Part shown: positions 23,332-42,334 of the stretch, piece after piece
Numbering within the stretch: the first letter of the stretch is position 1
Layout: each line of letters opens with the position of its first letter
DNA from: Deltaproteobacteria bacterium
GTDB lineage: Bacteria; Myxococcota_A; Polyangia; Haliangiales; Haliangiaceae
DNA length: 64,000 nucleotides
Direction of reading: 5' to 3'
Assembly: GCA_025353585.1 (NCBI GenBank)
Contig: JANXOM010000035.1
Span: forward strand, 1-64,000
Translations under genes and position numbers: made by a program
The notes under the pieces: generated by a model
Told to the model about the DNA's origin: nothing
Database searches by the model: none
What the model saw: only the letters and a program-made list of their open reading frames with translations

Positions 23332-24384
23332 TTAGCCGGCGAGCACGCGGGCGAGCAGCGCGGATCGGCTCTCGACGCCGCCGCGGGCGAGGAGCGCGGA
23401 CACGTGGAGCTCGATGGTGCGTGAGCTGACGGCGAGCAGCGCCGCGATCGTGGCGTTCGGCTGCCCACGCGCGAGGAGCTCGAGCACCTGGCGCTGGCGC
23501 GGCGTCAGGTTCCACACGCTGGCCCAGCGCCCGACGGCGGCCGCGATCCGCAGCTCGCTCGGTGCGTCACGGACGATCGCGAGCCAGCGCGGGCCGACGC
23601 CCGTCTCCGCGACCGGCGTCAGCTCGATGGCGATCGCGTTCGCGGTGCCCGTGAGGGCATCGGCGAGGGCCATCGCGATGTCGCGGCGATGCGAGACGAG
23701 GAGCGCGTGGCCGTGCGCGTTGGTCTCGTGGATCACGCCGGTGGCGGAGACGACGAACGCGGCCGCGCCGAGCTGGGTCAACGCGACCTCGAGCGCGCGG
23801 GCGTGGTGCACGCCGGTCGCGAGCCGCCGCTCGATCGCGAGCCGCCGGCGCATGGCGGGGACGAGCGCGGTGAGCAGCAGCGCCTGGCGCGCGGTCGTCT
23901 CGTCGGGGTGCAGGATGCCAAACCACCCCAGCAGGACCGGGCCATCGCACACGAGCGCGCGCAGCTGCTTGTGCTCGAACATGCGGAGCGGCTCGAACAC
24001 GTGGCGATACATCCGCGACGCCTTCCACGTGCCGGGCGAGCGCTCGTCGACCCATGCGCCGGCCTCGAACACCCGGTCCCGGATCTCGGCCGCGGGGAGC
24101 AGCGGATCGTAGAACACGGCGTCGGTGGCCTCGGTGGCGAACAGCGCATCGACGTGCGGGCGAACCCGCGGATCCGCGAGCGCGCCATCGACATCCCAGC
24201 GCTCGAGCTCCCAGCCGCTCAGACAGCGGCCGACGGTGTAGACGGCCGCGCTCTCCGCCTCGCCGAGCTCGCGCAGCTCGGCGAGGGACGTCGGGATGGC
24301 CGACGGCCCGCCGATCTGCAGCGTATCGAGCGCCGACGCGATCTCCGTGATCCGGTGTGCGTCCCGGCCCGCCAACGCCCTCAT
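23332..24384 (-). CDS. LuxR-family transcriptional regulator (paralogue 1)
   Basis: 350 aa from ATG 24384. The C-terminal LuxR HTH is clear: NLTPRQRQVLELLARGQPNATIAALLAVSSRTIELHVSALLARGGVESRSALLARVL. The region before it (residues 180-285) is PAS-like (LGAAAFVVSATGVIHETNAHGHALL). The N-terminal half is unlike any sensor I recognise but matches the neighbouring paralogue, including GPVLLGWFGILHP. No receiver Asp is present, so it is probably ligand- rather than phosphorylation-controlled. Confidence 0.85.
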   Translation of the reverse strand: MRALAGRDAHRITEIASALDTLQIGGPSAIPTSLAELRELGEAESAAVYTVGRCLSGWELERWDVDGALADPRVRPHVDALFATEATDAVFYDPLLPAAEIRDRVFEAGAWVDERSPGTWKASRMYRHVFEPLRMFEHKQLRALVCDGPVLLGWFGILHPDETTARQALLLTALVPAMRRRLAIERRLATGVHHARALEVALTQLGAAAFVVSATGVIHETNAHGHALLVSHRRDIAMALADALTGTANAIAIELTPVAETGVGPRWLAIVRDAPSELRIAAAVGRWASVWNLTPRQRQVLELLARGQPNATIAALLAVSSRTIELHVSALLARGGVESRSALLARVLAG

Positions 24385-24437
24385 ACAGCCCGCGCACCAT
24401 AACAGCCTCGCGCGTGGCAGAGGGGCGTCGCGCGACG

Positions 24438-25487
24438 CTACGCGAGCACGCGTGAGACGAGCGTCGCTCGATTGTCGGCCCCCGCGCGATCGAGGATGGC
24501 CGTGACGTGAAGCTCGACAGTGCGCTCTGTGATCCCGAGGCTTTCTGCGGTGGCGCCGTTCGAGAAGCCGCGCACCACGAGCTCCAGGACCGTGTGTTGC
24601 CGGGGCGTTAGGTGCCAACGCGCCGACGCGGCAGCCACCGCTTCGGTGATCCTCGTAGCCGGCGTGGACGCGCGTAGGATCGCGAGCGCACCGCCACCGG
24701 CGACGGGATACAGTTCGAAGGGGAGGGAGGCGGTGCGCTCGGCGCGCGCCGCTGCGATCGCATCTGCGATCTCGGCGTGGTGCGTTGCGAGGAGGGCGCG
24801 GCCGGTCGGGTTGGCCTCGTGGATCGCGCCGCGGGCGCCGATGAGGAACGCGGCGCCGCCGATCTGGGCGAGGGCGGCGTCGAGCACACTCTGGGTCCAG
24901 GCCGCGGAGCGCAGGCGCTGCTCGGCCGCGAACCGCCTCTGCATCACCGGCACGAGAGCGTCGAAGATCGCGAGCGGCGTTGCAGTGGGCACGGTCGGGA
25001 AGAGCCCGCCGAACCAGCCGAGGAGAGTCGGGCCGTCGTAGACGAGCGCGCCCGCCGCGTGAAGCCGGGGATGGCCGAGCGCGCGCTGCGCGTCCGCGAA
25101 GATCGGCGAGTCGAGCCAGGCGCTCGGTGCTTCGCGCTCGAGCCACGCGCCGAGATCGAAGGCGCGATTGCGGAGGCGCGGTTCGATCGCGACCGGCGGG
25201 GCGGGCGCCGTCCCCGCGGTGAGCGCGCCCAGGAGAGCATCGACGAGCTCGCGAACCCCCGGCGGGGCGAGGGCCGCGCGCCAGTGCTCGAGGGCGAGCC
25301 CGGTGGTGCGCGTGGCGATCGCGGCCACGACGACGCAGCTCGCCCCGGTGAGGTCGGCGAGCGACAGCAACGCGTCATGGACGCCGACATCGTGCTCGAG
25401 GCGAAGCATGCCGAGCTCGGCTTCGATCTGGGCGAAGCGGGGATCAGTTCTCGTTGGCCACTCGGTCGTCACGGCCGGCCTCACCAC
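24438..25487 (-). CDS. LuxR-family transcriptional regulator (paralogue 2)
   Basis: About 349 aa from GTG 25487; GTG 25484 or 25472 are alternatives. The start was chosen because the resulting length equals that of the downstream paralogue. Shared blocks include GPTLLGWFGGLFP, the PAS-like IGGAAFLIGARGAIHEANPTGRALLATH and the HTH HLTPRQHTVLELVVRGFSNGATAESLGITERTVELHV. The two genes point the same way with 53 bp between, a tandem duplication. The upstream gap of about 350 bp is shared with the divergent sigma-54-type activator gene. Confidence 0.82.
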   Translation of the reverse strand: MVRPAVTTEWPTRTDPRFAQIEAELGMLRLEHDVGVHDALLSLADLTGASCVVVAAIATRTTGLALEHWRAALAPPGVRELVDALLGALTAGTAPAPPVAIEPRLRNRAFDLGAWLEREAPSAWLDSPIFADAQRALGHPRLHAAGALVYDGPTLLGWFGGLFPTVPTATPLAIFDALVPVMQRRFAAEQRLRSAAWTQSVLDAALAQIGGAAFLIGARGAIHEANPTGRALLATHHAEIADAIAAARAERTASLPFELYPVAGGGALAILRASTPATRITEAVAAASARWHLTPRQHTVLELVVRGFSNGATAESLGITERTVELHVTAILDRAGADNRATLVSRVLA

Positions 25488-25738: not shown

Positions 25739-25755
25739 CTGGCGTGTGACTTGCT
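25739..25755 (+). promoter_or_regulatory. Sigma-54-type -24/-12 promoter
   Basis: CTGGCGTGTGACTTGCT has the GG and GC dinucleotides at exactly the required 10-base separation and the TTGC -12 box; the -24 box is TGGCGT against consensus TGGCAC. Transcription would start near 25767, some 70 bp before the activator's ATG at 25837. Position and match are good, but no experimental signal can be read from sequence. Confidence 0.55.
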
Positions 25756-25836: not shown

Positions 25837-27339
25837 ATGGTGGAGTCCTCGGGTGTGAGGCCGGAGCTGGAGCGCGATCTGTTCGCGCAGCTCCTCGCGA
25901 TTCGGGCGGCCGGCGATCCGCGCACCGTCATCGCCACCGTCCTGCGGTTGCTCGTCGAGGCATCGCACGCGCGGCGGGCGTACCTCGAGGTCTACGGGAG
26001 CGCGGAGCGCGCGGCGCCGCAGTGGCGGACGAGCTATGCGTGCACGGCCGAGGACGAGACGGCGATCCGCGCGGTGACGTCGCGCGGGATCGTTGCGGCG
26101 GCGCTGGCATCGGCCGCGACGCTCCACGTCCCGTACGCGGCGCTCGATGATCGGTTCGCGGCGCTGCCGAGCGTGCGGGACCAGCGGCTCGAGGCTGTGA
26201 TTTGCGTGCCGCTTGGTGGAAATGGCGGCGGTATCCTGTACGTGGAGGGCGAGCGCGGCGGCGGGCCATTCGGGGAAGGCGTGATCGAGCTGGCGGAGCT
26301 CGTCGGGACGCACGTGTGGGCGAGCCTCGGGCGGGTGGTGCGATCGGACCTCGCGGCGCGCGAGCCCGATCCGACGCGCGGACACCGGGGGCGGCTGCGG
26401 CTCGACGGGATCGTGGGCCGGAGCGCGGGCCTGGCGCGCGTGTTCGAGCAAGTGGAGCCGTATGCGCCGCTGGACGTGACGCTGCTGATCACGGGCGCGT
26501 CGGGGACGGGGAAGACGCAGATCGCGCGCGCGATTCACGACAACAGCCCGCGGCGGAATGGGCCGTTCGTGGAGCTCAACTGCGCGGCGATCCCCGAAGG
26601 TCTGATCGAGAGCGAGCTGTTCGGAACGATGCCGAGCGCATTCCCGGGCGCGCGGCGGCAAGCGGGCAAGGTGGAGGCGGCGGAGGGCGGGACGTTGTTC
26701 CTCGACGAGATCGTGGAGATCCCGTTCGCGGCGCAGGGGAAGCTGCTCCAGCTGTTGCAGTCGCGCCAGTACTACGCGCTTGCGAGCACGAAGCTGGCGA
26801 CGGCGAACATCCGGCTGATCGCGGCGACGAACGCGGATCTGGTCGCAATGGTGGCGGAGAAGAAGTTCCGCGAGGATCTGATGTACCGGATCAACGTGGT
26901 GAACCTGCGGATGCCGGCGCTGGCGGAGCGGCGGGAGGACGTGGGGCTGCTGGTGGACGACTTCGTGGCGAAGATCGCGAGGGAGCACCGGCTCGCGGCG
27001 ATCCCGGCGTCCGAGCAGTTCCGTCAGGCGATGGAGGCGCGCGACTGGCCGGGGAACGTGCGCCAGCTGCGGCATCAGGTGGAAGGCGCGCTCATCCGCG
27101 CGAACGCCGAGGGGGCGCCGCAGGTGGAGGTCCGGCATCTGCCCGACGGGGCGGGCCCGGGTGCAGGGGGGGCGCCGCGGTCGCCGACGTTTCACGAGGC
27201 GACGCGGGCGTACCAGCGGGAGCTGTTGCGCCGCGAGCTGACGGCCTGTGACTGGAATGTCACGCAGGTCGCGGCCCGGCTCGATCTGACGAGATCGCAT
27301 ATCTACAATTTGATTAACCAGTTCAACCTGACCCGTTAA
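25837..27339 (+). CDS. GAF-AAA+-Fis sigma-54-activator-like regulator with altered GAFTGA loop
   Basis: 500 aa from ATG 25837. A GAF-like sensor (about residues 15-165) precedes the AAA+ domain with Walker A GASGTGKT (220-227), Walker B GTLFLDEI, sensor I LIAATNAD, arginine-finger block FREDLMYRINVVNL and WPGNVRQL. A Fis-type HTH (VTQVAARLDLTRSHIYNLI) ends the protein. The sigma-54 contact loop, normally GAFTGA, is SAFPGA at residues 267-272. The ATPase should work but contact with sigma-54 is doubtful. The stop is 17 bp before the low-GC gene pair, so it heads that operon. Confidence 0.88.
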   Translation: MVESSGVRPELERDLFAQLLAIRAAGDPRTVIATVLRLLVEASHARRAYLEVYGSAERAAPQWRTSYACTAEDETAIRAVTSRGIVAAALASAATLHVPYAALDDRFAALPSVRDQRLEAVICVPLGGNGGGILYVEGERGGGPFGEGVIELAELVGTHVWASLGRVVRSDLAAREPDPTRGHRGRLRLDGIVGRSAGLARVFEQVEPYAPLDVTLLITGASGTGKTQIARAIHDNSPRRNGPFVELNCAAIPEGLIESELFGTMPSAFPGARRQAGKVEAAEGGTLFLDEIVEIPFAAQGKLLQLLQSRQYYALASTKLATANIRLIAATNADLVAMVAEKKFREDLMYRINVVNLRMPALAERREDVGLLVDDFVAKIAREHRLAAIPASEQFRQAMEARDWPGNVRQLRHQVEGALIRANAEGAPQVEVRHLPDGAGPGAGGAPRSPTFHEATRAYQRELLRRELTACDWNVTQVAARLDLTRSHIYNLINQFNLTR

Positions 27340-27356
27340 ATAGAAAACGAGGACGT

Positions 27357-27959
27357 ATGGCAAACTTTTTCAGAGCGTATATTGACGATCCAGGTGATGG
27401 AGGACTGTCCCCGCCGGACGCGAAGGCATCTATCGGACCTGTTCGTAATCCTGCTGACGATCAGGAAATCATTTACTGGTGCTACGGCGCGAAGCCCCGA
27501 AGCTACAAGCCGTATTTTGTCAGGGTGCGCGAAATTGCGGACGGCGAAATAACGTTCTGGCTCTGCTCGCCCGATCTCCTTCCCGGGCAAACCGCACCAA
27601 CTGAACTGCATAAGAATCCGATTACCGAGCGCCTGAGTCGTGGAGACCGGGTTTGGAACGAGTTGCCGTCCACGGCCCACCTCGTGCAGCCGGGCGAAAA
27701 GATCCTCATTTACGGATTTCTTTTCCTTACCGATTCTTACATCGGCCTGCTCATCGACCAAGGATTTATTTCCTCAGCAACTCTTGCGGCATTCGGACCA
27801 TCGGACGGGCCTGGAAAGTGGCCTCGCGGGACCGGTGGCGCTGCGAGAGCTGGGGTCGCTGGTGCTATTGATAAACTTCACGATCTCAAAAAGTCGAACA
27901 CGCAACTTAATGAAGCCCAACAACTGCAACTGCAAAAGTTTCTAGACGTGCTGAAGTGA
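27357..27959 (+). CDS. Unrecognised 200-aa protein, first gene of low-GC pair
   Basis: 200 aa. A good ribosome binding site (GAGGA, five bases before ATG) follows the regulator gene directly. GC content is about 50% against about 70% around it, and AT-ending codons are frequent, so the gene was probably acquired. Residues 1-135 look like a compact mixed alpha/beta domain (IIYWCYGAKPRSYKPYFVRV, GEKILIYGFLFLTDSYIGLL). A Gly/Ala linker then leads to a C-terminal helix rich in Lys and Gln (DKLHDLKKSNTQLNEAQQLQ). No family is recognised. Its stop shares one base with the next start (TGATG). Confidence 0.75.
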   Translation: MANFFRAYIDDPGDGGLSPPDAKASIGPVRNPADDQEIIYWCYGAKPRSYKPYFVRVREIADGEITFWLCSPDLLPGQTAPTELHKNPITERLSRGDRVWNELPSTAHLVQPGEKILIYGFLFLTDSYIGLLIDQGFISSATLAAFGPSDGPGKWPRGTGGAARAGVAGAIDKLHDLKKSNTQLNEAQQLQLQKFLDVLK

Positions 27960-28717
27960 TGCCCCTGCGAGTAGTCGTCGTAAGTCGGCCTCGTGGCGAT
28001 GATGGAGTTTTGAGGTCGATTTACGAGATTATTTCCGCAAGACGTGAGCCGAACGTCCATTGCTACCGTTGTGATTCGTCCGAAGACCTCGATCGAATAG
28101 TCCGTGACGCGTGCCGGTCATACGGTTATATCGAGTTTTTAGATTTGATTGGTCACGGCGCAGCGGGCGTGTTCGCTCTAGGAGATAGAAATCTTTTTGA
28201 CACGTCGTACAAGTTCGATGAGCCATTGAAAAATGCACCAATAGCCCGCGGGCTCTGCCGATATCTTCGCGAAACGGCGCAAGTGCGAATCCTCGGTTGC
28301 AATACCGGTGGTGCGGCGTTCATGTTAGACCCTCGGCCGCGTCCGGCGACACCATTCCAACCCGAGTTGAATGACAACGACGAAATGCATGGCCGGGCCT
28401 TGCTGACAAAACTCGGGATTGAGTTCGGCCCCCATCGAGTGGTCTACGCGCCAATCGACTGGCTCGACGATTTTGATTATTCGTCGAAACGCCCGCTTGG
28501 AAGTGAAGCGATGAACATGTCAATGTTGCTTTCATCCGATCAGACGGTTGATTCCGGAACTACTAGAACCGCGCGAATTTACAGAATGCGGGATTATTTT
28601 GATCCATATTTCCGCACGAGGCCGACGCCGAAGTATCAGAGGCGTGATCGCTCGCGCGATGCCGTTTTTGATACCGTCACGACCGCTCTATTCCGGATGT
28701 TGCGGATCGGCCACTAG
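27959..28717 (+). CDS. Putative caspase-fold (CHAT/DUF4347-like) cysteine peptidase
   Basis: 252 aa from ATG 27959, translationally coupled to the 200-aa gene. The order of elements is that of clan CD peptidases: strand LRVVVVSRP, strand YIEFLDLIGHG with His66, strand VRILGCNTGG with Cys114, then a helix containing GRALLTKLG. His-Gly and Cys after two adjacent strands is the catalytic dyad layout of caspases, CHAT and DUF4347 domains. The C-terminal 100 residues are basic (RRDRSRDAV) and unassigned. GC is again near 50%. The assignment rests on motif layout only. Confidence 0.55.
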   Translation: MPLRVVVVSRPRGDDGVLRSIYEIISARREPNVHCYRCDSSEDLDRIVRDACRSYGYIEFLDLIGHGAAGVFALGDRNLFDTSYKFDEPLKNAPIARGLCRYLRETAQVRILGCNTGGAAFMLDPRPRPATPFQPELNDNDEMHGRALLTKLGIEFGPHRVVYAPIDWLDDFDYSSKRPLGSEAMNMSMLLSSDQTVDSGTTRTARIYRMRDYFDPYFRTRPTPKYQRRDRSRDAVFDTVTTALFRMLRIGH

Positions 28718-31700
28718 TACTGCGACACGCAACGAATGCCAAGCCCGTACTCGAGGTACTGGTCCGGGTGCGTATTGCGCCACTTGATGTTTTGCTGCTC
28801 GAGCTTCGGATCGACCGACCACGCGGAGCCGAGCACCAGGCGGAGCTGACCGACAGCGGGTGCCTGGTAAATTGCCTTCGACCACTCGCTGACGTTTCCC
28901 GCGAGGTCGAAGACGCCGTAGGGGCTGCGGTCTTCGCGGAACGTGCCGACCGCGGAGGGCCCGGTCTCCTCGTCGTAACCCAGGTTCGCCGGGCGTGGCG
29001 ACGTCGTCGTTGCCCACGGCGTCGATCGGGTGGGAGCGTTGTTCGGCAGCCCGGACACGAACACGCCGCCTCGAAACGACTTCTGCCACTCATCGACGAC
29101 TGGCAGGTCTGCGCCCGCGAACCGACAGTATGCGCGCGCGACCTCGAAGTTCACTCCGGCGATTGGCTGCGCATGTGTCGTTCCGTCCGCGCGCGGCAGC
29201 AGTGACTCGTCGCCGGTGAGCACCTTCATCGACGTGTACTCGTCGAACGCGCCACGCGTCACCTCGGTGCGCCCGATCGCGAAAGCACCGGTCGTCGCGA
29301 GCTCTTCGGTGCCGTACACGTTCCGATAAAACGGGCCGGCCGGGATCTCGACCATGTCGACTTTGGAGGCCGCGCATGTCGGCACGCGTAGATGCAATAC
29401 CGTGCGCGTCGCCAGCCGTTCGCGGTAGCCCGGCAGGCGCTGGAGCCGGATCGTGCTCGGACTGCACTCGGCTCCGCGCGTCACCACGATCACCGCCGCG
29501 CTCGATCGCGCCTCGACTCGTTCGACCGACACCGCGCCTCGCCACGTCGCGCCGTGCCGCACCAGCTCCCCCTCGCCGTACTCCTTGCCCGTCTCGTGCG
29601 GGTGCTGCGGGTCCTCGTAAAACAGCTTCCACGTCAGCGCCGGATGCGCCGCGGGCGCCGATGCCGTCTGCGTCGCCGGATCCCAGTCGAACGGCGCGAG
29701 CTCCAGGTCGAACTCGCCCATGTCTTCCGCCGCCAGCCGCGCCTCCGCCTCCTTCTTCGCGAAGGACACGGCCACCCCGATCGCGCCCACCGCGACCGCC
29801 GCCAGCGCACCGATCGTCAAGCCGAGCATTGCGCGCCGCCGCCGCCGCGCCCGCGCCGCCCGCCGCAAGCTCGCGTCAAGAAAGCCGCGCGTTGACGTCG
29901 GCACGCTCACGTTCCACTCGTCGATCTTGCGCACCGCCTCGCCGAGCGCCGCGCCCGACCAGGTCTCGTCGTCGCGCTGGCCACGCCGCTGCCAGAGCTG
30001 GGTCGCCTGCTCCAGCTCGATCACCAGGAGCCGCTGCTCGGACGTCTCGTCGAGCCAGCGGGCCAGCTGCGGCCACGCCGTCGCCAGCGCCTCGTGAGCC
30101 ACCTCCAGCTGCGTCTCGTCGCTCTCCACATCCCGCGTCGCCACAACGAGCCGCCGCGCCAGTAACTGGTCTACCACCGCGCTGGCATCCGCCGGCATCC
30201 CGTTCACGAGCTCACGTCGTCGCCGCGGCCGCCGGGTCCCGTCGGGGTGGAACAGGCCCAGCAGGATCGCGCGCACGCTGCGCACCTGATCCGGCGCGAG
30301 CTCCGACAATAGCGCCTGCGCGTGCGCGGCGAGCGCGCCCGTCGCTCCGCCCATCGCGTCATACTCGCTCGCGAGCACGCGCCGCGTTCCGGCGTCGCGC
30401 CGGTCCCACAGCGCGCGACACGCGAACTGCAGCAGCGGCAGGCACGCTGCTTGCCCGGACACGTCCGCCACGATGCGCGCCGGCAGCTCCGGCGCATCCA
30501 CCGTGTACCCCGCGTTCGCCAGTGGCCCGGTCACCGCCGCGAGCAGCTCCGCCGCGCCGAGCGGGGCGAGCGGCGCCACCGCGCCGAGATGAATCCGCAG
30601 CCGCGGCGACTCGGCGAGCCGCGCCAAGAAGTCGTCCCGCACCGTGAGCACCGTCCGCCAGGGCTCGCCCGGCAGCGTCGCGGCGCTCGCGACACACTCC
30701 ACGAACGCCGCGGCCTCGTCGGACGCCGCGAGCGTGAAGGTCTCCTCGAACTGATCGATGAACAGAAGTACGCGGGCGCCGTGCTGCGCCGCGAGCGTCC
30801 CGAGCTCGAGTGCGAGCGCGTCCGGGTTCGCGCGCAACGCCGCCGCCAGCCCCGGCGCCGCCGCACCTGTCAGCGCATGCGCCAGCGCCGCGAACGGCGA
30901 CGCGCCTGGTCGCAGCGCCGCGACGCGCCAGCTCCCGGCCTCGTCGAGGCGCGGCAGGAGCGCGGCGTTCACGAACGAGCTCTTCCCGATCCCGGATGGC
31001 CCGACGATCGGCACGAGCGGCCGCGTCCGCAGCGCCTCGACGAGCGCGTCGAGCTCCGCGGCGCGCCCGAAGTAATCCGCTGCATCCCCGCGCGCGAACG
31101 CCACGAGGCCGGGGAACGGGCTGCGCTCGGCCGCCTCGGCCGTGTCCGCTGCTGGTCGCGCGCGCGGGTCGAGCAGCACGCCGAGCCGCCGTACGAGCTC
31201 CTCCGCGGTCGGGCGCGCCGCCGGCTCCGCCGCCAGGCAGCCGCGCACCAGCGCGCTCCAGCCGGTCTCGGGCAGCATCGCGAGCACGAGCGGCGCCTTG
31301 CCGTACACGTGCTGTACCACCGCGCCGTCCGCGATCGGCCGCGCCCCGGTGATCATCTCGCCGAGCAGCAACCCGAGCGCCCACACGTCGAGCGCGCCCG
31401 TTGGCGCCGCGCCGCGCAACCGCTCCGGCGCCATGTACGCCGGCGTCCCCGAGGTGCCGCCCGTCGCGCCATCGCCGATCAGCTTCGCGAGCCCGAAGTC
31501 GACGACGCGGACCCGTCCGTCGCGCGGGATGAGCACGTTCTCCGGCTTCAGATCCGCGTGCACCAGACCGCGCCGGTGCGCCTCCGCGATGGCCTCCGCG
31601 ATCGCGCGCGCGTAGCGTAGCGCCTCGCGCGCCGGCAAAGGTCCGCCCCGGAGCCGCGCGCGCAGTGACTCGCCATCCACGTGCTCGAGCGCGAGGAACG

Positions 31701-32001
31701 GCCGCCCCGCGTGCTCGCCGACCGCATGCAGCGTGACGATGTGCGGGTGGTTGAAGTTCGCGGTGGTGCGCGCCTCCTCGAGGAAGCGCGCGACGCCATC
31801 GGCGTCCATCACCGCGCGCTTGATGAGCTTGAGCGCCACGCGCCGCCCGAGCACCGTGTCCTGGGCCAGGTACACCTCGCCCATCGCGCCTTCACCGAGG
31901 AGCCCCCGCACGCGGTAGTCCCCGATCTGCGTGCCGGCCGCCAGCGGCTCGCTGGACGCGCCAGGCGTGACCTGCTCGGAGGGCATGCGACGAGGCGCCA
32001 C
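28714..32001 (-). CDS. Ser/Thr kinase - STAND NTPase - membrane helix - FGE/SUMF1-like protein
   Basis: 1095 aa. Kinase domain (about 28-280): LGEGAMGEVYLA, VALKLIK, HADLKPENVL (Ala for the HRD Arg), VVDFGLAK and GTPAYMAPERL. STAND-type NTPase (about 300-700): Walker A GPSGIGKSSFV near residue 335 and Walker B VLLFIDQFEETF. A single membrane helix lies near 725-748. The C-terminal FGE-sulfatase/SUMF1-like domain (about 880-1095) has MVEIPAGPF, GRTEVTRGAF, PVVDEWQK, YGVFDLAGNVSEW and GIRCV. The active-site Cys segment of true formylglycine enzymes is not there, so it probably senses ligands. It converges on the low-GC pair with a 4-bp stop overlap. Confidence 0.9.
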   Translation of the reverse strand: MAPRRMPSEQVTPGASSEPLAAGTQIGDYRVRGLLGEGAMGEVYLAQDTVLGRRVALKLIKRAVMDADGVARFLEEARTTANFNHPHIVTLHAVGEHAGRPFLALEHVDGESLRARLRGGPLPAREALRYARAIAEAIAEAHRRGLVHADLKPENVLIPRDGRVRVVDFGLAKLIGDGATGGTSGTPAYMAPERLRGAAPTGALDVWALGLLLGEMITGARPIADGAVVQHVYGKAPLVLAMLPETGWSALVRGCLAAEPAARPTAEELVRRLGVLLDPRARPAADTAEAAERSPFPGLVAFARGDAADYFGRAAELDALVEALRTRPLVPIVGPSGIGKSSFVNAALLPRLDEAGSWRVAALRPGASPFAALAHALTGAAAPGLAAALRANPDALALELGTLAAQHGARVLLFIDQFEETFTLAASDEAAAFVECVASAATLPGEPWRTVLTVRDDFLARLAESPRLRIHLGAVAPLAPLGAAELLAAVTGPLANAGYTVDAPELPARIVADVSGQAACLPLLQFACRALWDRRDAGTRRVLASEYDAMGGATGALAAHAQALLSELAPDQVRSVRAILLGLFHPDGTRRPRRRRELVNGMPADASAVVDQLLARRLVVATRDVESDETQLEVAHEALATAWPQLARWLDETSEQRLLVIELEQATQLWQRRGQRDDETWSGAALGEAVRKIDEWNVSVPTSTRGFLDASLRRAARARRRRRAMLGLTIGALAAVAVGAIGVAVSFAKKEAEARLAAEDMGEFDLELAPFDWDPATQTASAPAAHPALTWKLFYEDPQHPHETGKEYGEGELVRHGATWRGAVSVERVEARSSAAVIVVTRGAECSPSTIRLQRLPGYRERLATRTVLHLRVPTCAASKVDMVEIPAGPFYRNVYGTEELATTGAFAIGRTEVTRGAFDEYTSMKVLTGDESLLPRADGTTHAQPIAGVNFEVARAYCRFAGADLPVVDEWQKSFRGGVFVSGLPNNAPTRSTPWATTTSPRPANLGYDEETGPSAVGTFREDRSPYGVFDLAGNVSEWSKAIYQAPAVGQLRLVLGSAWSVDPKLEQQNIKWRNTHPDQYLEYGLGIRCVSQY

Positions 32002-32063: not shown

Positions 32064-33446
32064 ATGCAATGGACTCGCGCCCTCGCTGGCGCTGCCTTGA
32101 TCGCCGTCGGTGCTGCGAACGCGCCGGCGCTCGCGGATCCCGCGGCGGATCCGAAGATCCCGTTCGAGAAGTACAAGCTGCCGAACGGGCTCGAGATCAT
32201 CCTCGCCCCCGATCCCAGCGTGCCGCTCGTCGCGGTGAACGTCTGGTACCACGTCGGCTCCGGCGACGAGGTGTTCGGCCGCAGCGGGTTCGCGCACCTG
32301 TTCGAGCACATGATGTTTCAGGGCAGCAAGAACGTCGGCGCGGACAAGCACTTCGAGATCCTCAAGAAGATCGGCAGCGAGCAGATCAACGGCACCACGA
32401 ACACCGACCGCACGAACTACTTCGAGGTCGTGCCGAGTAACCAGATCGAGACGGCGCTCTGGCTCGAGAGCGACCGCATGAGCCACCTGCTCGACATCCT
32501 CGATGCGGACCAGCTCAAGAACCAGATCCTCGTCGTGCGCAACGAGCGCCGCCAGAGCTACGAGAATCGGCCGTACACGAAGGCCTTGTTCGCGCTGCAC
32601 GAGGCGCTCTATCCCGAAGGCCACCCGTACCGCTACTTGACGATCGGCAAGGCGGCCGACCTGGACGCCGCCACCGTCGCGGACGTGAAGAACTTCTTCC
32701 GCACCTGGTACGTGCCCGCCAACGCCACGATCGCGATCTCGGGCGACTTCGAGCCGGCCGCCGCGAAGAAGCTCGTCGACAAGTGGTTCGGCACGTTCCC
32801 GACGAGCCAGAAGCCGGCCGTCATCACCGTCACGGCTCCGCCGGTCGCCGCGCGCGAGCTCACCATCACCGACGACAAGCTCGCGAAGCTCCCCGAGATC
32901 ACGTTCGCGTGGAGCTCGCCGGCGAACTTCGGCGAGGGCGACGCCGAGCTCGACTTCGTGGCCAACGCCCTCGGCGCCACGGGCCCGGGTCGCCTCTACA
33001 AGGCGCTCGTCTATGACAAGCAGCTCGCGCAGAGCGTGAGCGTCGAGCAGAGCGGCTCGCAGTTCTCCGGCACGTTCGAGATCACCGTGACGCTCAAGAG
33101 CGACGCGGCCGGTAAGCTCGACGAGGTCAAGAAGATCGTCGCCGACGAGGTCGCACGCGTGACGCGCGAGCCGCTCGGTGACCGCGAGATCGAGCGCGTC
33201 GTGGCCGGCGTCGAGGCCCGCGCGATCCGCGGCCTCGAGTCGACGTTCGGCCGCTCGCAGGTGCTGCAGCAGTACAACCACCTTCTCGGTGATCCCGACA
33301 AGGTCACGTTCGACCTGGACCGGTATCGCAAGACCACGCCGGAGAAGATCCGCAGCGTCGCGGCGCGCGTCCTCGACCCCGCGCACGAGATCACCGTCCT
33401 CACGCTCGTCCCCGCCGCCGACAAGAAGAAGGAAGGCACGCCGTGA
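32064..33446 (+). CDS. M16-family zinc metallopeptidase, catalytic subunit
   Basis: 460 aa with signal peptide (MQWTRALAGAALIAVGAANAPALA). The inverted zinc motif HLFEH is at residues 78-82 within AHLFEHMMFQGS, and the distal Glu lies in VRNERRQSYENRPY. Length fits half-size bacterial M16B peptidases. The stop overlaps the next start (ATGA), and that gene is the non-catalytic M16 partner. Together they should form a periplasmic heterodimer that degrades peptides. Confidence 0.92.
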   Translation: MQWTRALAGAALIAVGAANAPALADPAADPKIPFEKYKLPNGLEIILAPDPSVPLVAVNVWYHVGSGDEVFGRSGFAHLFEHMMFQGSKNVGADKHFEILKKIGSEQINGTTNTDRTNYFEVVPSNQIETALWLESDRMSHLLDILDADQLKNQILVVRNERRQSYENRPYTKALFALHEALYPEGHPYRYLTIGKAADLDAATVADVKNFFRTWYVPANATIAISGDFEPAAAKKLVDKWFGTFPTSQKPAVITVTAPPVAARELTITDDKLAKLPEITFAWSSPANFGEGDAELDFVANALGATGPGRLYKALVYDKQLAQSVSVEQSGSQFSGTFEITVTLKSDAAGKLDEVKKIVADEVARVTREPLGDREIERVVAGVEARAIRGLESTFGRSQVLQQYNHLLGDPDKVTFDLDRYRKTTPEKIRSVAARVLDPAHEITVLTLVPAADKKKEGTP

Positions 33447-35095
33447 AGCGCTTCGCTGCAACGCTACTGGTCACGCTCCTCGCCGCCTGCGCGGGCCCCA
33501 AGCCCGTCGCCGTCCCGGCCCCGCCGCCGACTCCCCCGACCGAGCCGGTCGCCCCGCCAAAGACCGCGGAGACAAAGCCGATGCCGACCGCCACGCCCAC
33601 CCAGACGGCCGCGCCCCAGGCGCTCGCGTTCCCCGACGAGGACTTCCGGCGCGCGCAGCCCGTCCCGGGCGAGAAGCGCACGTTCAACTTCCCGAAAGTG
33701 AAGACCTTCACGCTCAAGAGCGGCGTCAAGGTGTTCCTCGTCGAACAGCACGTGCTGCCGATCGTCTCGATGGACCTCAACATCGAGGGCGGCGGCCTCG
33801 CCGATGCCAAGGGCAAGGACGGCATGGTGGGCGTTTGCATGTCGATGCTCACCGAGGGCACCGACAAGCTCGACAAGATCGCCTACTCCGAGGCGCTCGC
33901 CGACATCGCCTCCCAGGTCAACGCGTACGCCGGCGATGACTCGCACGGCCTGACGCTGTCGAGCCTCACCAAGCACCTCGACGAGACGTTCGATCTGTTC
34001 GCGGCCACGCTCCGCACGCCGGGCATGCGGCAGTCGGACTTCGACCGCATGATCAAGCGCCGGATCGAGAGCGTGAAGCAGAGCAAGGGCAGCCCGCAGG
34101 CGATCTACCCACGCGTCGTCGGGCCCGTGCTGTACGGCCCGAGCCACCCGTTCGGCGGCGTTATCACCGAGGACGGCCTCGGCAAGATCACCCTCGACGA
34201 CTGCAAGAAGTTCGTCGGCGCGTGGCTGAGGCCGAAGGGCGCGCGCCTGTTCGTCGTCGGCGATCAGACCGAGGCGCAGATCCGCGCTCGCTTCGATGGC
34301 GCGCCGGCGCTCGCGCAGTGGACCGGCTCGGCCCCGAAGCCGCCCGCGCTCCCCGCGCCCAAGACCATGGCCGGGCGCATCTTCTTCGTGAACGTGCCGG
34401 GCGCGGCCCAGTCTCAGGTGGCGATGATGCACTTCGGACCCAAGCGCACCGATGCGGGCTACTTCGCCAGCTCGATCCTGGCGTCGGTGTTCGGCGGCGG
34501 CTTCGCGAGCCGCATCAACATGAACCTGCGCGAGGAGAAGGGGTACTCGTACGGCGCGCGCGGCGGGTTTGGCTACTCGCGCGCGTACGGCGTGTTCACC
34601 GCGAGCTCGGGCGTCCAGGCGAACTCGACGTACCAGTCGCTGATCGAGATGCACAAGGAGCTCGTCGACCTGTCGTCCGGCAAGAAGCCCACGACGACCG
34701 AGGAGCTCGAGCGCGAGAAGGTCGGCGCCACGCTCGCGCTGCCGGGCCGCTTCTCGACCGCCCAGGCCGCGCTCGGGCAGTACCGCAACCTCGTCTACTT
34801 CGATCTCCCGCTCGACTACTACGACACCTACGTTGCGCGTATCGAGAAGGTCGCGGCGGGGGACGTCGCGGCGGCGGCCAAGAAGCAGCTCAAGGGCGGC
34901 GAGGCCATCTACATCGTCGTCGGTGACGGCGACGCGCCGATGATCCACGCGGTCGACAAGAAGTACGACGTGGAGCTCAAGAAAGGCGACAAGCGCGTCA
35001 CGCTCCGTGAGGCGCTCACCGACCTCGCGGCCAGCGGTGATGTGGGCAAGGGTGGGCTAGTGGAGCTCGACGCCGACGGTCACGTCGTCCACTAA
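33443..35095 (+). CDS. M16-family non-catalytic partner, lipoprotein
   Basis: 550 aa. Lipobox LLAAC (Cys16) and a long Pro/Thr-rich linker to about residue 60 precede an M16 fold. The zinc motif is missing: the corresponding stretch reads GMVGVCMSMLTEG. The substrate-binding Arg/Tyr pair is kept in GFASRINMNLREEKGYSYGARG. This is the usual division of labour in bacterial M16B heterodimers. The lipid anchor would tether the complex to a membrane. Confidence 0.9.
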   Translation: MKRFAATLLVTLLAACAGPKPVAVPAPPPTPPTEPVAPPKTAETKPMPTATPTQTAAPQALAFPDEDFRRAQPVPGEKRTFNFPKVKTFTLKSGVKVFLVEQHVLPIVSMDLNIEGGGLADAKGKDGMVGVCMSMLTEGTDKLDKIAYSEALADIASQVNAYAGDDSHGLTLSSLTKHLDETFDLFAATLRTPGMRQSDFDRMIKRRIESVKQSKGSPQAIYPRVVGPVLYGPSHPFGGVITEDGLGKITLDDCKKFVGAWLRPKGARLFVVGDQTEAQIRARFDGAPALAQWTGSAPKPPALPAPKTMAGRIFFVNVPGAAQSQVAMMHFGPKRTDAGYFASSILASVFGGGFASRINMNLREEKGYSYGARGGFGYSRAYGVFTASSGVQANSTYQSLIEMHKELVDLSSGKKPTTTEELEREKVGATLALPGRFSTAQAALGQYRNLVYFDLPLDYYDTYVARIEKVAAGDVAAAAKKQLKGGEAIYIVVGDGDAPMIHAVDKKYDVELKKGDKRVTLREALTDLAASGDVGKGGLVELDADGHVVH

Positions 35096-35142: not shown

Positions 35143-35664
35143 GTGAGGGAACACGAACGCGGCTTCACGTTGATCGAGATGATGATCACGGTCGCGATCA
35201 TCGCGGTGCTCGCGTTGATTGCCGTGCCGGCGTTCTTCAGTCAGTCGCGAAAATCGAAGGCGAGCGCCGAAACGGCCTCCATGTTCGCCGAGCTGTCGAC
35301 GAAGGAAGAACAATACAAGATCGACCAGGGAACGTACCTGGCGGTACCTGCGTGCGCAGGCTTTCCCTCCGCGCAGCTCCAGAGCATCACGGCGTGCATC
35401 CCCGGCGCATGGGCGACGATGCACGTGAACCCGCCCGAGTCGAAGGCGTACTGCAGCTACGCGATCACGGTCGGCCCGCAGAGCTCCACCCCGAGCGCGC
35501 CGGCGCCGTTCCACATGGCGAGCGACGGCACGGATCCCGTCCCCGTCGCGGCCTGGTACTACATCCTCGCGACCTGCGACATGGACGGCAGCCCGACGGT
35601 GAACAGCACTTACTTCATGAGCAGCATGGACACGCGCATCCAGGTCGACAAGCCGGGCAACTAG
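35143..35664 (+). CDS. Type IV pilin-like protein (prepilin-type cleavage site)
   Basis: 173 aa from GTG 35143. A short charged leader ends at the prepilin peptidase site in RGFTLIEMMITVAIIAVLALIAVPAFF, with Glu at +5. Four Cys in the mature part could form two disulfides. It heads a run of five prepilin-like genes and then PilY1-like genes, so it is either a pilin subunit or a minor pilin. There are only about 47 bp between the M16 stop and this start. Confidence 0.88.
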   Translation: MREHERGFTLIEMMITVAIIAVLALIAVPAFFSQSRKSKASAETASMFAELSTKEEQYKIDQGTYLAVPACAGFPSAQLQSITACIPGAWATMHVNPPESKAYCSYAITVGPQSSTPSAPAPFHMASDGTDPVPVAAWYYILATCDMDGSPTVNSTYFMSSMDTRIQVDKPGN

Positions 35665-36222
35665 ATGCGGTCCCAACGCGGCTTCACCTTGATCGAGATG
35701 ATGATGGTCGTCGCCATCATCGGCATCCTGAGCATCTTGTTCATCGGGCTCAGCGCGCGCACCTTTGGCTCGAACGCCGACAGCATCGGGGACGAGGTCG
35801 TGGCCCAGATGAACTTCGCGCACACGCGCGCGGTCTCGACGCGGCGCTATCACTGCGTCGAGGTCAAGCCGCAGCAGATCCTCATCTACCAGGCGTCGTC
35901 CGGCGGCGCCGGGCTCTTCGGCATGGCCGCCGTACCGACGGTCTGTCCCACGCCGGCCAACTGGCAGCTCGTCCAGAAGATGTCGATCCCGACCGGCACC
36001 ACGATCAACGACGTGCAGGCGATCCGGGCCACCGCGACCGGCGCGGCCGTGGCGCCGAACGGCGCGCTCGACTCCATCATCTTGTTCAAGCCCGATGGAA
36101 CGGCCAGCGCCGTCGCGGGCACCGGCGCGACCGTGTTCCTCACGGACGGCACGGGCGCACGCCGGGATCGCATCAACCTCTCGTACGCGACGGGCAACGT
36201 GTACGCGCGAAAGGCCTGGTGA
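35665..36222 (+). CDS. Minor pilin, GspH/FimT type
   Basis: 185 aa. The ATG directly follows the TAG of the pilin gene. Leader MRSQRGFTLIEMMMVVAIIGILSILF has the prepilin site. The mature domain shows AHTRAVSTRRYHCVEV, the GspH-like beginning in which the helix leads into the first strand. Minor pilins of this type prime pilus assembly at the inner membrane. Confidence 0.85.
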   Translation: MRSQRGFTLIEMMMVVAIIGILSILFIGLSARTFGSNADSIGDEVVAQMNFAHTRAVSTRRYHCVEVKPQQILIYQASSGGAGLFGMAAVPTVCPTPANWQLVQKMSIPTGTTINDVQAIRATATGAAVAPNGALDSIILFKPDGTASAVAGTGATVFLTDGTGARRDRINLSYATGNVYARKAW

Positions 36223-36227
36223 CCGCG

Positions 36228-36632
36228 ATGCGGCGCATCTCTTCCCCTCGCGGGCGTGGGCAGCGCGGCTTCACGCTGGTCGAGGTCATGGTCGCGCTGC
36301 TCATCACCGTGATCGCGGTGATCGGCATCCTCGCGCTGTACATGGTCGAGACGCGCGCCTCCGGCTACTCGCGCCACGAGACCGAAGCCGCGGTCCTCGC
36401 CGAGGACAAGATGGAGCTCTTGCGCACGATCACACCACCGGCGCTGGTGCCACTTGCCGGGACCGATCCCAACGTCAACGAGTTCGGGACGCCGGTGGCC
36501 GGCGGCCTCTACACGCGCGTCTGGTCGATCACGCCCAATGGTTCCCCGGCCACGTACTGGGACTACGTGGTGACGGTGAACTGGACCGAAGACAACGTCG
36601 GCCGTTCGGTCACCGAAAGGTCGCGCCTGTGA
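36228..36632 (+). CDS. Minor pilin, PilV type
   Basis: 134 aa from ATG 36228; GTG 36219, overlapping the previous stop as GTGA, is an alternative. Cleavage motif GQRGFTLVEVMVALLITVIAVIGILAL, then YSRHETEAAVLAEDKMELLRT, typical of PilV/GspI with early loss of the helix. It is shorter than the other pilins in the set. It is part of the minor pilin operon. Confidence 0.85.
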   Translation: MRRISSPRGRGQRGFTLVEVMVALLITVIAVIGILALYMVETRASGYSRHETEAAVLAEDKMELLRTITPPALVPLAGTDPNVNEFGTPVAGGLYTRVWSITPNGSPATYWDYVVTVNWTEDNVGRSVTERSRL

Positions 36633-37687
36633 TGTCGCGTAGCCAGCACCGCGCGACCGCGCGCCCGACCGAGCGCGGCTTCACGTTGATCGAGCTCATG
36701 GTGTCGCTCGTGCTGTTCAGCGTCGCCGTCGCCGGCGTGCTGTCCGTGGCCGTCACGATGTCGACGGCCTTCCGCGACCAGCGCTCGCTGGTCCAGACCG
36801 AGACGGCCACGCGCAGCCCGATGGACTACCTCGCGGACGTGCTCCGCAACGCCAGCCCCGGCGTCCAGAACGGCGTCATCACGGACGGGTACGCGCCGGC
36901 CGCCAGCGCCGTGTGCCTCAGCCCGAAGGCGATCGAGGTCGTGGACGCCAACGTCGGTGCCTCCCCGGGGCCTGCCGCGGGGACGGACACGCTCGACGTC
37001 ATCTACGCCTCGGGGGCGTTCTTCACGTACTCCCACGCCGTGTGGTTGGCGGGCAGCACCACGCTCAACGTCGCGGACCCGTCGGGCTTCGCGGCCGGCG
37101 ACTTCATCGTCCTGACGGACCTGACGAACGGCATCGTCCTCAAGATCACGGGCGTCGCGGGCAACACGCTCACGTTCGCCCCGCAGACCTGCACCACGAA
37201 CGTCCCCGGCTCGGGCTACGCGAACGGCTCGCTCGTCATTCGCGCCATGCACGCGAAGTTCTACGTCGACGCGCTCGCCGTCGATGGCCAGCCGAACCTC
37301 ATGATGCTTGTCGATCCGAATAACGCCGCGTACACGGCCGGTCAGCCCGTCGCGGATGGCGTCGAGGATCTCCAGGTCGCGCTCGGCATCGACAACAGCC
37401 CGGCCGATGGCGCGATCGGCGCGGAGGTCCCGCTGGTCACCGGCGCGGACGAGTGGATCTACAACGCGAACGGCGAGACCCAGCCGGCGTTTCCGTACGT
37501 CCTGCGGTCCGTCCGGGTCACGCTGATCGCCCGCAACGTGAACGCGAACACGAACGGCAACGTGGTCCTCACGTACAATCGGCCGGCCGCCGAGAACCAC
37601 CTCGCGGCGCCGCTCAACTCGGACAACTTCCGGCGGCGCATCCTGCAGAGCACCGTCGAGATTCGCAATCTGGAGGGCTCGCCATGA
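36632..37687 (+). CDS. Minor pilin, PilW type
   Basis: 351 aa. The start overlaps the previous stop by one base (TGATG). Prepilin site in ERGFTLIELMVSLVLFSVAVAGVL. The large soluble domain includes YLADVLRNASPGVQNG and VADGVEDLQVALGID, the VExLxVxYG-like strand seen in PilW. Size matches PilW, which caps or stabilises the priming complex. Confidence 0.87.
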   Translation: MSRSQHRATARPTERGFTLIELMVSLVLFSVAVAGVLSVAVTMSTAFRDQRSLVQTETATRSPMDYLADVLRNASPGVQNGVITDGYAPAASAVCLSPKAIEVVDANVGASPGPAAGTDTLDVIYASGAFFTYSHAVWLAGSTTLNVADPSGFAAGDFIVLTDLTNGIVLKITGVAGNTLTFAPQTCTTNVPGSGYANGSLVIRAMHAKFYVDALAVDGQPNLMMLVDPNNAAYTAGQPVADGVEDLQVALGIDNSPADGAIGAEVPLVTGADEWIYNANGETQPAFPYVLRSVRVTLIARNVNANTNGNVVLTYNRPAAENHLAAPLNSDNFRRRILQSTVEIRNLEGSP

Positions 37688-38232
37688 CCCGCGTCTTGAC
37701 CTCAGCCCGGCGCGCGGGTGAGCGCGGTAGCGCCCTCCTCGTCACGCTCGTCCTCGTCGGTGCGTTGCTCGCCGGCTCCGCGGTGCTCGTCCTGCTGCAA
37801 ATGACGTCGACTCGCTCGACGGACATGACGCGCACCGGGCTGTCGGCGCTGTACTGCGCCGAGGCGGGGCTCGCCGCGGCGCGCGCCACGATGCTCGCGA
37901 ACTACACCCAGTGGAACACCGGCCTCGGTGCGTTCCCGGGCGAGCCGGCGTTCCTCGGCGCGGGGGCGCCGAACTTCATCAGCCACGACATCGACGGAGA
38001 TGGCTCTCCGGACTTCGTCCTCTCGATGCAGGACAACGAGGACGAGCTCTTTCCCGCCGCGCCGCAGCCGCTCGTCGACAGTGACCTGAAGGTCTTCTTG
38101 ATCTCGCGCTGCATCAGCCCGAAGCTCCTCGACAACCCGAAAGAGGTCCGGGAGCTGATCCAGTTCACGGGTGGCGGGCAGTGTTACCAGTCTCAGCTCG
38201 GCGGCTGCGGCGGCAACGGCAACAACAATTGA
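37684..38232 (+). CDS. Minor pilin, PilX type
   Basis: 182 aa, ATGA overlap with the previous gene. The N terminus ERGSALLVTLVLVGALLAGSAVLVLL is PilX-like: Ser rather than Phe follows the cleavage Gly and there is no Glu5. YCAEAGLAAARATML is the PilX AExGLxxA signature. It ends in a Gly/Asn-rich tail with two Cys. In other systems PilX bridges to PilY1, which fits the next two genes. Confidence 0.85.
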   Translation: MTRVLTSARRAGERGSALLVTLVLVGALLAGSAVLVLLQMTSTRSTDMTRTGLSALYCAEAGLAAARATMLANYTQWNTGLGAFPGEPAFLGAGAPNFISHDIDGDGSPDFVLSMQDNEDELFPAAPQPLVDSDLKVFLISRCISPKLLDNPKEVRELIQFTGGGQCYQSQLGGCGGNGNNN

Positions 38233-38387: not shown

Positions 38388-41300
38388 ATGCGTCTGAGCC
38401 GGATTATTGGCAGCGCGGTCATCGTCACGTGCGGCCTGGTCAGCGCCGCGAGCGCGAACAGCACGTCGACGCCATTTGCCGCTGGATCGCTCATCCTCCC
38501 GACGCAGTCGTCGTACCAGGACGATTGCGGCGCGCTCTCCGTCTACGGCCTCGTCTACGACGTGCTGCGGGCGGAGACGTGGCTCGCGACGAACGGGCAT
38601 CCGCTCGTCACGATCAACTACGTCATCGACGACCTCAAGCCGGCGCCTAATCGCTGCCGCCCGACGAGCCTGAACGCCGCGCCGAACGGGCTCGGCGCGA
38701 ACGCGGCCTGGGACGACAGCTGTGATCTCAAGCTCACCGGCGCGAGCTCGATCGTCAAGCTCGTCAACAACGCGTCCACCGCGAGCACGAACGACACCGC
38801 GTTCAGCACGACGCTGACCAGCAGCTCCGCCTATCCGCAGTACCTGGCGACCCCGACGGCGAGCGCCACGAGCATCGGCTACTTCGGCGGCCCGTTCGTC
38901 ATCAGCGCCGCCGATGCGCCCACGTTCCTGAGCCTCCTCGATGGCACGTACCCCGCCCTCGACTCCGACAACCAGCCGATCGACTTCAGCGCCTTCCGCG
39001 CGACGGCGAGCTGCGTCGTGGGCAGCACGCACCACGTCAATATCCACCGCTCGTCCGTCGCCTTCTCCGCGCCCGTGCGCAAGGCGTTCACGGCCAAGCC
39101 GCCGCGCCTCGCCGTGCTCTCGACGGACAGCCTCCACTACTACAAGCCGATCGGCCCGCACGCGTGCCCGACCGACCTCGGTCTCTGCGGCGTCATCACC
39201 TCCACGCCGTCGTTCGGCATCGCGAACGCGAGCGAGCTGGGCTCCACCGCGACCTACAACGCTTCGAGCGCGCATGGCCTCGTGGCCGGTGACGTCGTCG
39301 TGGTGTCCGGCATGAACCGGGCCCCCTACAATGGCCGGTTCACCGTCACGAGCGCCCCGTCGAGCACCCAGTTCAAGGTCACCCTCTCGGTCACGGGTGT
39401 GCTCGGCGGCGCCGGGGGCAATGGCACCGAGAACGGCTCCATCATGGAGAACTACCTCGCGAACGCCGGGCTGAACTTCCAGAACGCGCAGGGCTGCCCC
39501 GCCGGCGGCACCAACGTCGGCAACATCGCGATCTGCCCGAACTCCGGCGCGGCGGGCCAGATCTTCGACATCATCGACTTCCAGGACATCGTGGCCGGCA
39601 ACGCGGCCAACGGGCTCGGCCTGTTCACCAAGGACAGCGGCGTGCCGCGCTACACGATGTTGTGGTCGCCGCACTGGGTCACGACGGCCAGCACGACCTC
39701 CGGCCCCCTCGCCGTCGAGAACACCGCGATGGCGAACATCAACACGTTCCTCAACGGTCAGACCGGCCTCCTCGCCGAGTGCGCCGCCATCTCGTCATTC
39801 GAGGGCGCCTATCAGGGCGGCTCGAAGGACCTGGTCACGGGCGGCCTCCAGCTGCAGACCTGCGTCAACGACGGCACTGGCAACTGCTCCGTCGGCGCGA
39901 CGTCGTGGGGCATGGATCGCGGTCCGTCGAGCCTGCCCACCGGCACGCTGCACAACTGCACCGATCCCGCCGGCGGCGGTGGCAACTGCGTGAAGTATGG
40001 CGCGCCGACGGACGAGTTCGTTCAGGTCGCGGACTATCTCTGGGACACCAATGGCGGCCACGTCACCGGCTTCCAGCCCGCCGCCGCGACGACGTCGATG
40101 TTCAAGCCCGGCGTGACCCCGCTGATCTCCGCGTACACCGGTGGCGGTAGCACCCTCCGCGGCCACTACGCGAGCCGCAACATCAAGGACAACACGCCCG
40201 GCAAGGCGAACGTCCTCTACCTCGGTGGCCACGACCAGTCGGGCAATGTCGCCGGCACGAAGCTCGCCCTCGAGACCCTGCTCCTCCTCGGCTCGCCGAC
40301 GATCGTCCCGGCGCCGACGATCTTCGAGACGTCGCGCTCGTCTCCGATCGCCACGACGCTGCCCAACGGGGACGCCGTCGTCGTCAGCGGCACGTTCGAG
40401 AACGTCGTCCCGGCGCCCATCCTCCCGAACGCGGTCCTCAACACGAGCGCGGACTTCGCGAACGGCATCTGGTCGTTCCCGGCCGTGAAGGGGCACCTGC
40501 ACGCGACCGTGGCGGGCACGATCGGGACCTCCGAGACGACGATCGGCACCGGCTCGACGGACTTCGACGGTGCGCTCAACATCCCGACCCCGAACAACGC
40601 CGGCTGCGGCACGAACTTCAACCTCAGCTGTCGCTCCGTCTTCACGACGATCGCGCCGACCGTCCTCGGCGTGGCCCTCCACCCCGCGGTCACGTTCGTC
40701 ACGGACAGCCAGGCCGCGAACCTCGGGCCGGCCCTCGTGTCCGGAACCGCGCTCGTGGCGGCGGACTACACGAACATGATCCACCGCGTGCTCGCGGGCT
40801 CCTGGAACGGGACCTCCTACGTGCCCGCGCTCGGTGGCATCGATCATTCGACCGTCGCGGTGATCGGCCCGAGCACGCTCGCCAACGGGGGCCGTGCCAC
40901 CATGGCGTACGTCGGTGCGAGCGACGGCATGCTCCACGCCTTCTGCGCAGAACAGAACGCCGCGAAGGGCTGCGGCACGATCGGCGGCGAGCTGTGGGCC
41001 TTCTTGCCGCGCACGCAGCTGGCGGGCATTCACTCGAACAAGGCGGTCATCCAGGGTTCGCCCCACGTCATCGATTCCTTCGGTGACTTCTCGGGCTCGG
41101 GGACGAAGAGCTTCCGCACGATTCTCACGTTCCTGACGGGCTCGGGCGATCCGACCGATCCGGCCGCCTCGCAGCCGGCGCTCTACGCCCTCGACATCAC
41201 CGACCCGCAGAACCCGAAGGTCGTCTTCGAGTACACGATCCAGTCCCCGGGCGCGCTGCGCGGCGCCGATGTCATCGGCAGTGGCCTCGCGCTCACCGCG

Positions 41301-42203: not shown

Positions 42204-42311
42204 CGCGCGTCGGGGAGTACGAGGTGGGAGCGGGGCCCACCCGGATCGAGCGTATTCGCGCTGTCCCGAATGCGCACATCGATCTTCGATAAGCGCGCGT
42301 GATAGCCTGGG

Positions 42312-42324: not shown

Positions 42325-42334
42325 ATTCGTAGCC

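Follow-up and report, generated by a model that had tools for sequence, protein, structure and literature searches.

Two adjoining genes of low GC content, placed directly behind a regulatory gene in the 64,000-nucleotide stretch of DNA analysed here (the window), raise the question of whether they form a unit of their own or belong to a larger system, and of what such a system might do. A sequence-only reading had taken the pair, together with the regulator, for an acquired and signal-controlled protease module, perhaps serving defence or self-killing. The best explanation overall, to which we give a probability of roughly 55%, is that the pair belongs to a signalling module of four genes, of which it forms the variable half, with a protease-effected response.

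The pair consists of gene A (27357–27959, plus strand, 200 amino acids) and gene B (27959–28717, plus strand, 252 amino acids), which overlap in the sequence TGATG at 27957–27961. Gene A starts 17 bp (27340–27356) behind the stop codon of the regulator gene and has a ribosome-binding-like sequence, GAGGA (27349–27353, plus strand), at a short spacing of 3 nt from its ATG. On the far side, the stop codons of B and of a convergent kinase gene on the minus strand share the four letters CTAG (28714–28717), and 4-nt overlaps of B and the kinase gene are present also at two other loci (C133 and L136). The coordinates of A and B, the 17-bp gap, the TGATG coupling, and the positions of His66 (in GHG) and Cys114 (in GCN) of B all agree with the sequence-only reading.

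That reading had also described both genes as low in GC, and the figures bear this out: GC is 53.9% in A and 53.2% in B, and GC at third codon positions (GC3) is 0.55 and 0.56, respectively, about 16 standard deviations under the other genes of the window (mean 0.941, SD 0.024, n = 49 called genes). Its further claim that the change begins and ends at the gene boundaries holds for the drop itself, not for its exact limits. A fine GC scan places the onset at about 27270, inside the last ~70 bp of the regulator gene, and the drop fades 100–200 bp into the convergent kinase gene; the low-GC block (27270–28860) thus reaches from the 3' end of the regulator gene across A and B to the outermost 3' part of the kinase gene. 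When the block was searched at DNA level for a possible donor, all matches were of ~40 bp or less. The host codon-usage model calls neither A nor B, as would be expected if both were spurious open reading frames in a low-GC intergenic stretch. This reading has a negligible probability and is refuted by conservation: the two proteins have homologues with conserved motifs and synteny in other genera, and B additionally yields a confident fold.

Pfam DUF4347 (PF14252) matches B with 19.4 bits (E 9.4e-4) and a relative from the f24 family with 14.5 bits; as the score of B lies under the curated cut-off of 24.6, we call the protein ‘DUF4347-like’ only. An AlphaFold model built on five aligned sequences has a core pLDDT of ~80–90 (blocks 1–120 mostly 80–90), with alternating strands and helices, in which His66 ends strand E58–68 and Cys114 directly follows strand E103–113. 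The top Foldseek match of this model is 9qpe_G, the DUF4347 protein Tce1 (E 1.5e-4), which is also the best solved match (Z 13.9, 159 residues, 3.0 Å). Next come SAVED-CHAT (Z 10.7) and caspase-7, legumain, and GPI transamidase (8.9), and C11- and C80-type proteases are matched as well; matches to SDR proteins, being low-TM Rossmann matches, were discarded in favour of the clan CD rows. In a PDB sequence search with the B profile, 9qpe_G reached an E value of 1.3 only, and a weak lectin match was judged to be due to chance.

The relatives of B were found within the same phylum and are 17–29% identical to the B of the window. His66 and Cys114 are kept in 21 of 21 relatives read; none of the seven aligned relatives lacks the pair, which is invariant in three alignments (A1, A3, and A5). 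On the strength of the model, B almost certainly has the clan CD (caspase-like) cysteine peptidase fold, as the sequence-only reading had proposed from the His66/Cys114 layout, and it is probably an active protease. The authors of the Tce1 structure regard Tce1 and Tce2, which have this His/Cys pair too, as putative cysteine proteases, and the toxicity of Tce2 to yeast was relieved by mutating its active-site Cys115 (PMC13323088). Tce1, a type VI secretion system effector of Pseudomonas aeruginosa (PDB 9qpe), shares its fold and its His/Cys pair with B; it differs in that it is loaded into Hcp for secretion, whereas B adjoins a receptor kinase and no secretion context was seen. By inspection, the N termini of both A and B are without a hydrophobic leader. 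B also resembles the proteases of CHAT/SAVED-CHAT and Craspase (fold matches Z 10.7 and 8.0), in which a caspase-fold protease is activated within a sensory defence complex; unlike these, it has no TPR or SAVED domain, and no CRISPR or CBASS genes were noted beside B at the loci examined.

Whether A and B belong to each other and to their neighbours can be judged from their recurrence. A genome-contig search with the B alignment found three loci, all in Myxococcota metagenome-assembled genomes (MAGs); weak B matches within unrelated genes (L006/L015, L009/L018, and L010/L019) were judged from their context to be due to chance. The B profile has 23 matches in 361 genomes, spread over 14 of these; two matches lie inside very large proteins and 21 are stand-alone genes, of which 18 adjoin a kinase-nSTAND-FGE gene and 14 a profile-detected A. 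Five A–B pairs (G158:C40, G060:C32, G060:C100, G016:C2, and G005:C47) had not contributed to the profiles that detected them, so that the co-occurrence of the pair, which the sequence-only reading had proposed as a check, extends beyond the training set, and the order regulator–A–B recurs too. None of the three outcomes named beforehand as speaking against the sequence-only reading was seen: the model of B shows a clan CD fold, Cys114 and His66 are conserved in homologues, and the pair is found together elsewhere. B-like domains occur in two very large ORFs of ~2200 and ~1560 amino acids (L133, G307:C18, and L134, G006:C558), possibly DUF4347-bearing surface proteins.

The full set, consisting of a regulator gene, an A-position gene, B, and a kinase-nSTAND1-FGE gene, is present at ten loci within the phylum, three of which lie in the window's own genome (the window, C133, and C173). 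The order regulator–A–B–convergent kinase gene is found in the window, C133, G288, L136, G392, and G386 (L136 being a Myxococcaceae MAG, and G392 and G386 belonging to the same genus), and the order is rearranged in C173, L135, G379, and G247. In all ten the linked regulator is of the GAF- or FHA-AAA+-Fis type. In the f24 family, A and B lie together with a kinase-nSTAND-FGE gene or two such genes, and no regulator was seen. Convergent A and B genes, present in other families, indicate that co-transcription is not required, and the kinase gene does not always adjoin them there. These recurrences make it very probable that the four genes are one module. Two genes and a regulator had been proposed as the module; the set itself recurs, and its extent was underestimated, since the convergent kinase-nSTAND1-FGE gene had been missed.

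If A and B were instead a stand-alone mobile protease–inhibitor pair of toxin–antitoxin type, with receptor and regulator as incidental neighbours, their low GC against the flanks and their translational coupling would be readily explained, as would the few pairs without a kinase gene (G005:C47, G060:C100, and possibly G086:C71). The 18 of 21 stand-alone B genes next to a kinase-nSTAND-FGE gene and the regulator common to ten loci argue against this, as does C173, where A comes after an FHA-type regulator gene and B stands in line with the kinase gene; moreover, no relative of A or B was found in the plasmids, phages, or viral contigs searched. We consider a stand-alone pair quite improbable.

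As an observation apart, three f24 loci (L016, L017, and L122) contain tandem kinase-nSTAND-FGE + A units with B genes interspersed, which suggests local duplication of receptor–A units. Elsewhere in the window's genome, a Ser/Thr kinase-nSTAND gene (G000:C195; L066: 5217–11826) encoding 1739 amino acids, with no FGE match, lies directly upstream of an AAA+ regulator gene, hinting that pairs of linked regulator and kinase-nSTAND are a broader theme.

The convergent gene (28714–31986, minus strand) encodes a receptor-like protein of 1090 amino acids, recognised by Pfam, a transmembrane (TM) scan, and four invariant cysteines, in which a Ser/Thr kinase, nSTAND1, a TM segment, a linker, and an FGE/C-type-lectin-like domain follow one another. 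The kinase domain (31201–31917, minus strand) has the motifs HADLKPEN and DFG and the nSTAND1 NTPase domain (29971–31119, minus strand; Pfam E 2.7e-95) the Walker A motif GPSGIGKS, both from Pfam and motif comparison. The same protein carries the FGE-sulfatase/C-type-lectin-like domain (28717–29379, minus strand; Pfam E 1.2e-23), predicted by a topology scan to be extracytoplasmic, and Pfam finds this pairing of nSTAND1 and FGE in C173 and C133 too. The kinase gene at C253 is without this C-terminal layout, and no A or B adjoins it.

Between nSTAND1 and FGE lies a predicted TM segment (residues 725–743; 29758–29814, minus strand) with an Arg/Lys-rich cytoplasmic side. The hydropathy scan finds a hydrophobic segment at this place in 19 of 19 kinase proteins, most of which are enriched in Arg and Lys on its N-terminal side, and four cysteines beyond the segment are invariant in all 19. 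Judged by these two features, the proteins look like outside-in receptors. This predicted topology fits an arrangement in which kinase and NTPase would lie inside and a disulfide-bonded FGE region outside the inner membrane, and an outward-facing FGE domain is quite likely. Active formylglycine-generating enzymes have a closely spaced pair of catalytic cysteines near the C terminus. This pair is absent from the C-terminal 345 residues of the kinase protein in the window, whose only cysteines (841, 871, 954, and 1086) are not closely spaced; a binding role is thus, judging from these residues, more likely for the FGE domain than an enzymatic one.

The regulator gene (25837–27339, plus strand, with an in-frame upstream GTG at 25756) encodes 500 amino acids with a GAF domain, an AAA+ domain (Sigma54_activat, PF00158, E 9.2e-58), and a Fis-type helix-turn-helix (HTH_8), all identified by Pfam, and its Walker motifs GASGTGKT and LFLDEI are intact. 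In characterised activators the motif GAFTGA makes the contact with sigma-54. The corresponding L1 loop of the window's regulator reads SAFPGA; in a comparison of seven loci, GAFTGA was present in L135 and L125 only, the other loci having GAFSGA, GAHSTA, or GAFPGA. The substitution makes sigma-54 control of the module, and the sigma-54 dependence of this regulator as judged from its loop, doubtful. The name ‘sigma-54-type activator’, given to the protein previously, is therefore apt for its PF00158 ancestry and questionable for its function. A site scan found a weak sigma-54-like site, TGGCGTGTGACTTGC (25740–25754, plus strand), with two mismatches, upstream of the regulator gene; the frequency of such sites in the 64-kb window does not exceed that expected by chance.

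The four genes have diverged to very different degrees. Between close loci, identity is 58–72% for regulator and kinase, ~49–59% for nSTAND1, and 39–49% for FGE, falling to 30–40% for A and 23–37% for B in their alignable parts. At three loci (the window, C173, and G288), GC3 is low across A and B and in the part of the kinase gene that encodes FGE, with a step near the FGE boundary from 0.96 to 0.54–0.78 in G288, from 0.84–0.98 to 0.48–0.68 in C173, and, more weakly, from 0.90 to 0.80–0.86 in the window. The remaining module copies, including C133 and L136, have native GC throughout, which indicates that low GC is not a constant trait of the module. The acquired look of A and B noted earlier is thus seen in the foreign-looking GC of the window, C173, and G288, and not as a constant low GC. 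The simplest reading of these sequence data is that FGE, A, and B would have been replaced as a block from outside sources, with subsequent amelioration; fast evolution alone may also be the explanation. The most variable parts are A, B, and FGE, and they seem to be exchanged together; this would suit a recognition-and-response unit under diversifying selection, be it for defence or for telling self from non-self.

The C-type-lectin-like sensors diversified by diversity-generating retroelements (DGRs) are similar in that an FGE/CLec domain on nSTAND1 proteins is the variable sensor (PMC10907252). Such diversification of FGE was rejected here because no PF00078 reverse transcriptase is present in the window's genome (89.9% complete); unlike in the DGR systems, the variation looks like block exchange and divergence.

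A has no family match in Pfam, PADLOC, NCBIfam, or PHROGs (nor does PADLOC match B), in keeping with the earlier remark that it resembles nothing familiar, and a genome-contig scan with the single A sequence gave no match. A profile of A-position proteins gained new members that directly adjoin independently found B genes. The A of the f24 family, which belongs to the same phylum, consists of two tandem repeats (hhalign probability 95, E 2e-8), and residues ~39–143 of the window's A form one unit that aligns with the second of these (probability 92.8, E 3.9e-7). Homology of the window's A to the A-position proteins of C133-type and C173-type loci of the same genome is not demonstrable by hhalign (probability 5 and 0.4). 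PDB sequence matches of the A profile, mainly to designed beta-propellers through summed weak repeats with none passing singly, were discarded, and a weak A match in L004/L013 was judged from its context to be due to chance. The model of A (pLDDT 43.5) is too poor to name a fold or to see an active site.

We tentatively regard A as an adaptor or inhibitor, at slightly under even odds. PopC/PopD-type regulated protease–inhibitor pairs of myxobacteria, in a related phylum, likewise have a small partner gene beside a protease gene; their protease class differs from that of B. A could also take the place of the shared EAD/Death-like adaptor that links NTPase and effector in NTPase-FGS systems; Pfam finds no EAD match in A, B, or the kinase protein. 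Alternatively, A might itself be the effector, held inactive until cleaved by B as in a proenzyme–protease pair, with the receptor controlling B only. The pairing of A and B, with an A that differs in length, number of domains, and sequence, would suit this arrangement, and nuclease–protease pairs of such logic have been reported elsewhere (PMC12799240). The sequence of A resembles no enzyme, however, and the model is too poor to reveal an active site; we regard this alternative as unlikely.

For the module as a whole, the closest description is due to Kaur, Iyer, Burroughs, and Aravind, who predicted an NTPase-FGS group that comprises nSTAND1, kinases, caspases, and trypsins in putative counter-invader systems (PMC8195603). 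Central nSTAND1, C-terminal FGE, N-terminal Ser/Thr kinase, and caspase-type peptidases as proposed effectors are common to both. Here, however, the protease is a separate DUF4347-like gene accompanied by a small A protein, the predicted place of FGE is outside the membrane, and the linked genes include a GAF/FHA AAA+-Fis regulator; the text of that paper mentions neither ‘Myxococc’ in any form nor sigma54 or sigma-54. The module is best read as a form, seen in Myxococcota, of the predicted NTPase-FGS conflict systems, in which a DUF4347-like protease would act as effector. A literature search of limited coverage, by which novelty is not proven, turned up no account of such a DUF4347-like effector, of A as a partner, of a linked regulator, or of a layout that spans the membrane.

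A mechanism may be proposed along these lines. The receptor would span the inner membrane and expose its lectin-like FGE domain to the outside, and a ligand bound by this domain could trigger nSTAND1 assembly and kinase signalling inside. B, presumably produced together with A under the linked regulator, would be activated by the receptor signal, A most likely serving as an adaptor or brake between receptor and protease. Activated B might then cleave cellular proteins, resulting in growth arrest or death. Intracellular invaders would escape a sensor that faces outwards, which sets this mechanism apart from the published FGS proposal. A role of the module in conflict or self-killing, which we favour slightly by analogy, has against it that no defence genes or mobile elements are shown at the locus. 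In a more specific form, the module would be a polymorphic transmembrane system of self/non-self recognition, in which FGE and its cognate A and protease form a cassette that is exchanged as a whole while the regulator and the kinase-NTPase core on either side stay constant, and mismatched alleles or attack lead to protease-driven death; this we hold to be improbable.

A housekeeping or developmental role would be compatible with much of the same evidence. The receptor would then sense an envelope or developmental cue, B would process a specific regulator, and A would inhibit B, with neither death nor defence involved, comparable to regulated proteolysis in myxobacterial development. A receptor topology with the sensor outside, a dedicated GAF/FHA regulator, several copies in a single genome, and the lack of a defence-library match for A and B would all be accommodated. 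A distribution as sporadic as that of B (14 of 361 genomes) is unusual for a developmental pathway, however, and the far greater divergence of A, B, and FGE than of the kinase core and the foreign-looking GC likewise weigh against a switch of this kind, which we deem rather unlikely.

DUF4347 domains have hardly been characterised. If the receptor-and-protease module is as proposed, it would connect a DUF4347-like protease of caspase fold with a membrane receptor in which kinase, STAND NTPase, and lectin-like sensor are combined, in an architecture resembling that of eukaryotic death receptors. The exchange of the sensor tip together with the effector pair, if true, would offer a testable case of bacterial receptor–effector co-diversification, for which a single genome supplies three natural alleles to set side by side.

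Around the module, two adjoining genes left of the regulator (23332–25409, minus strand) have similar C termini resembling LuxR-type helix-turn-helix domains. Right of the kinase gene, two tandem genes (32064–35095, plus strand), the first with an M16-peptidase-like HxxEH motif (HLFEHMMFQGS), look like host genes. Further along, two very large tandem ORFs of 1271 and 1251 amino acids with similar starts (38388–46120, plus strand) follow pilin-like ORFs (35179–38232).
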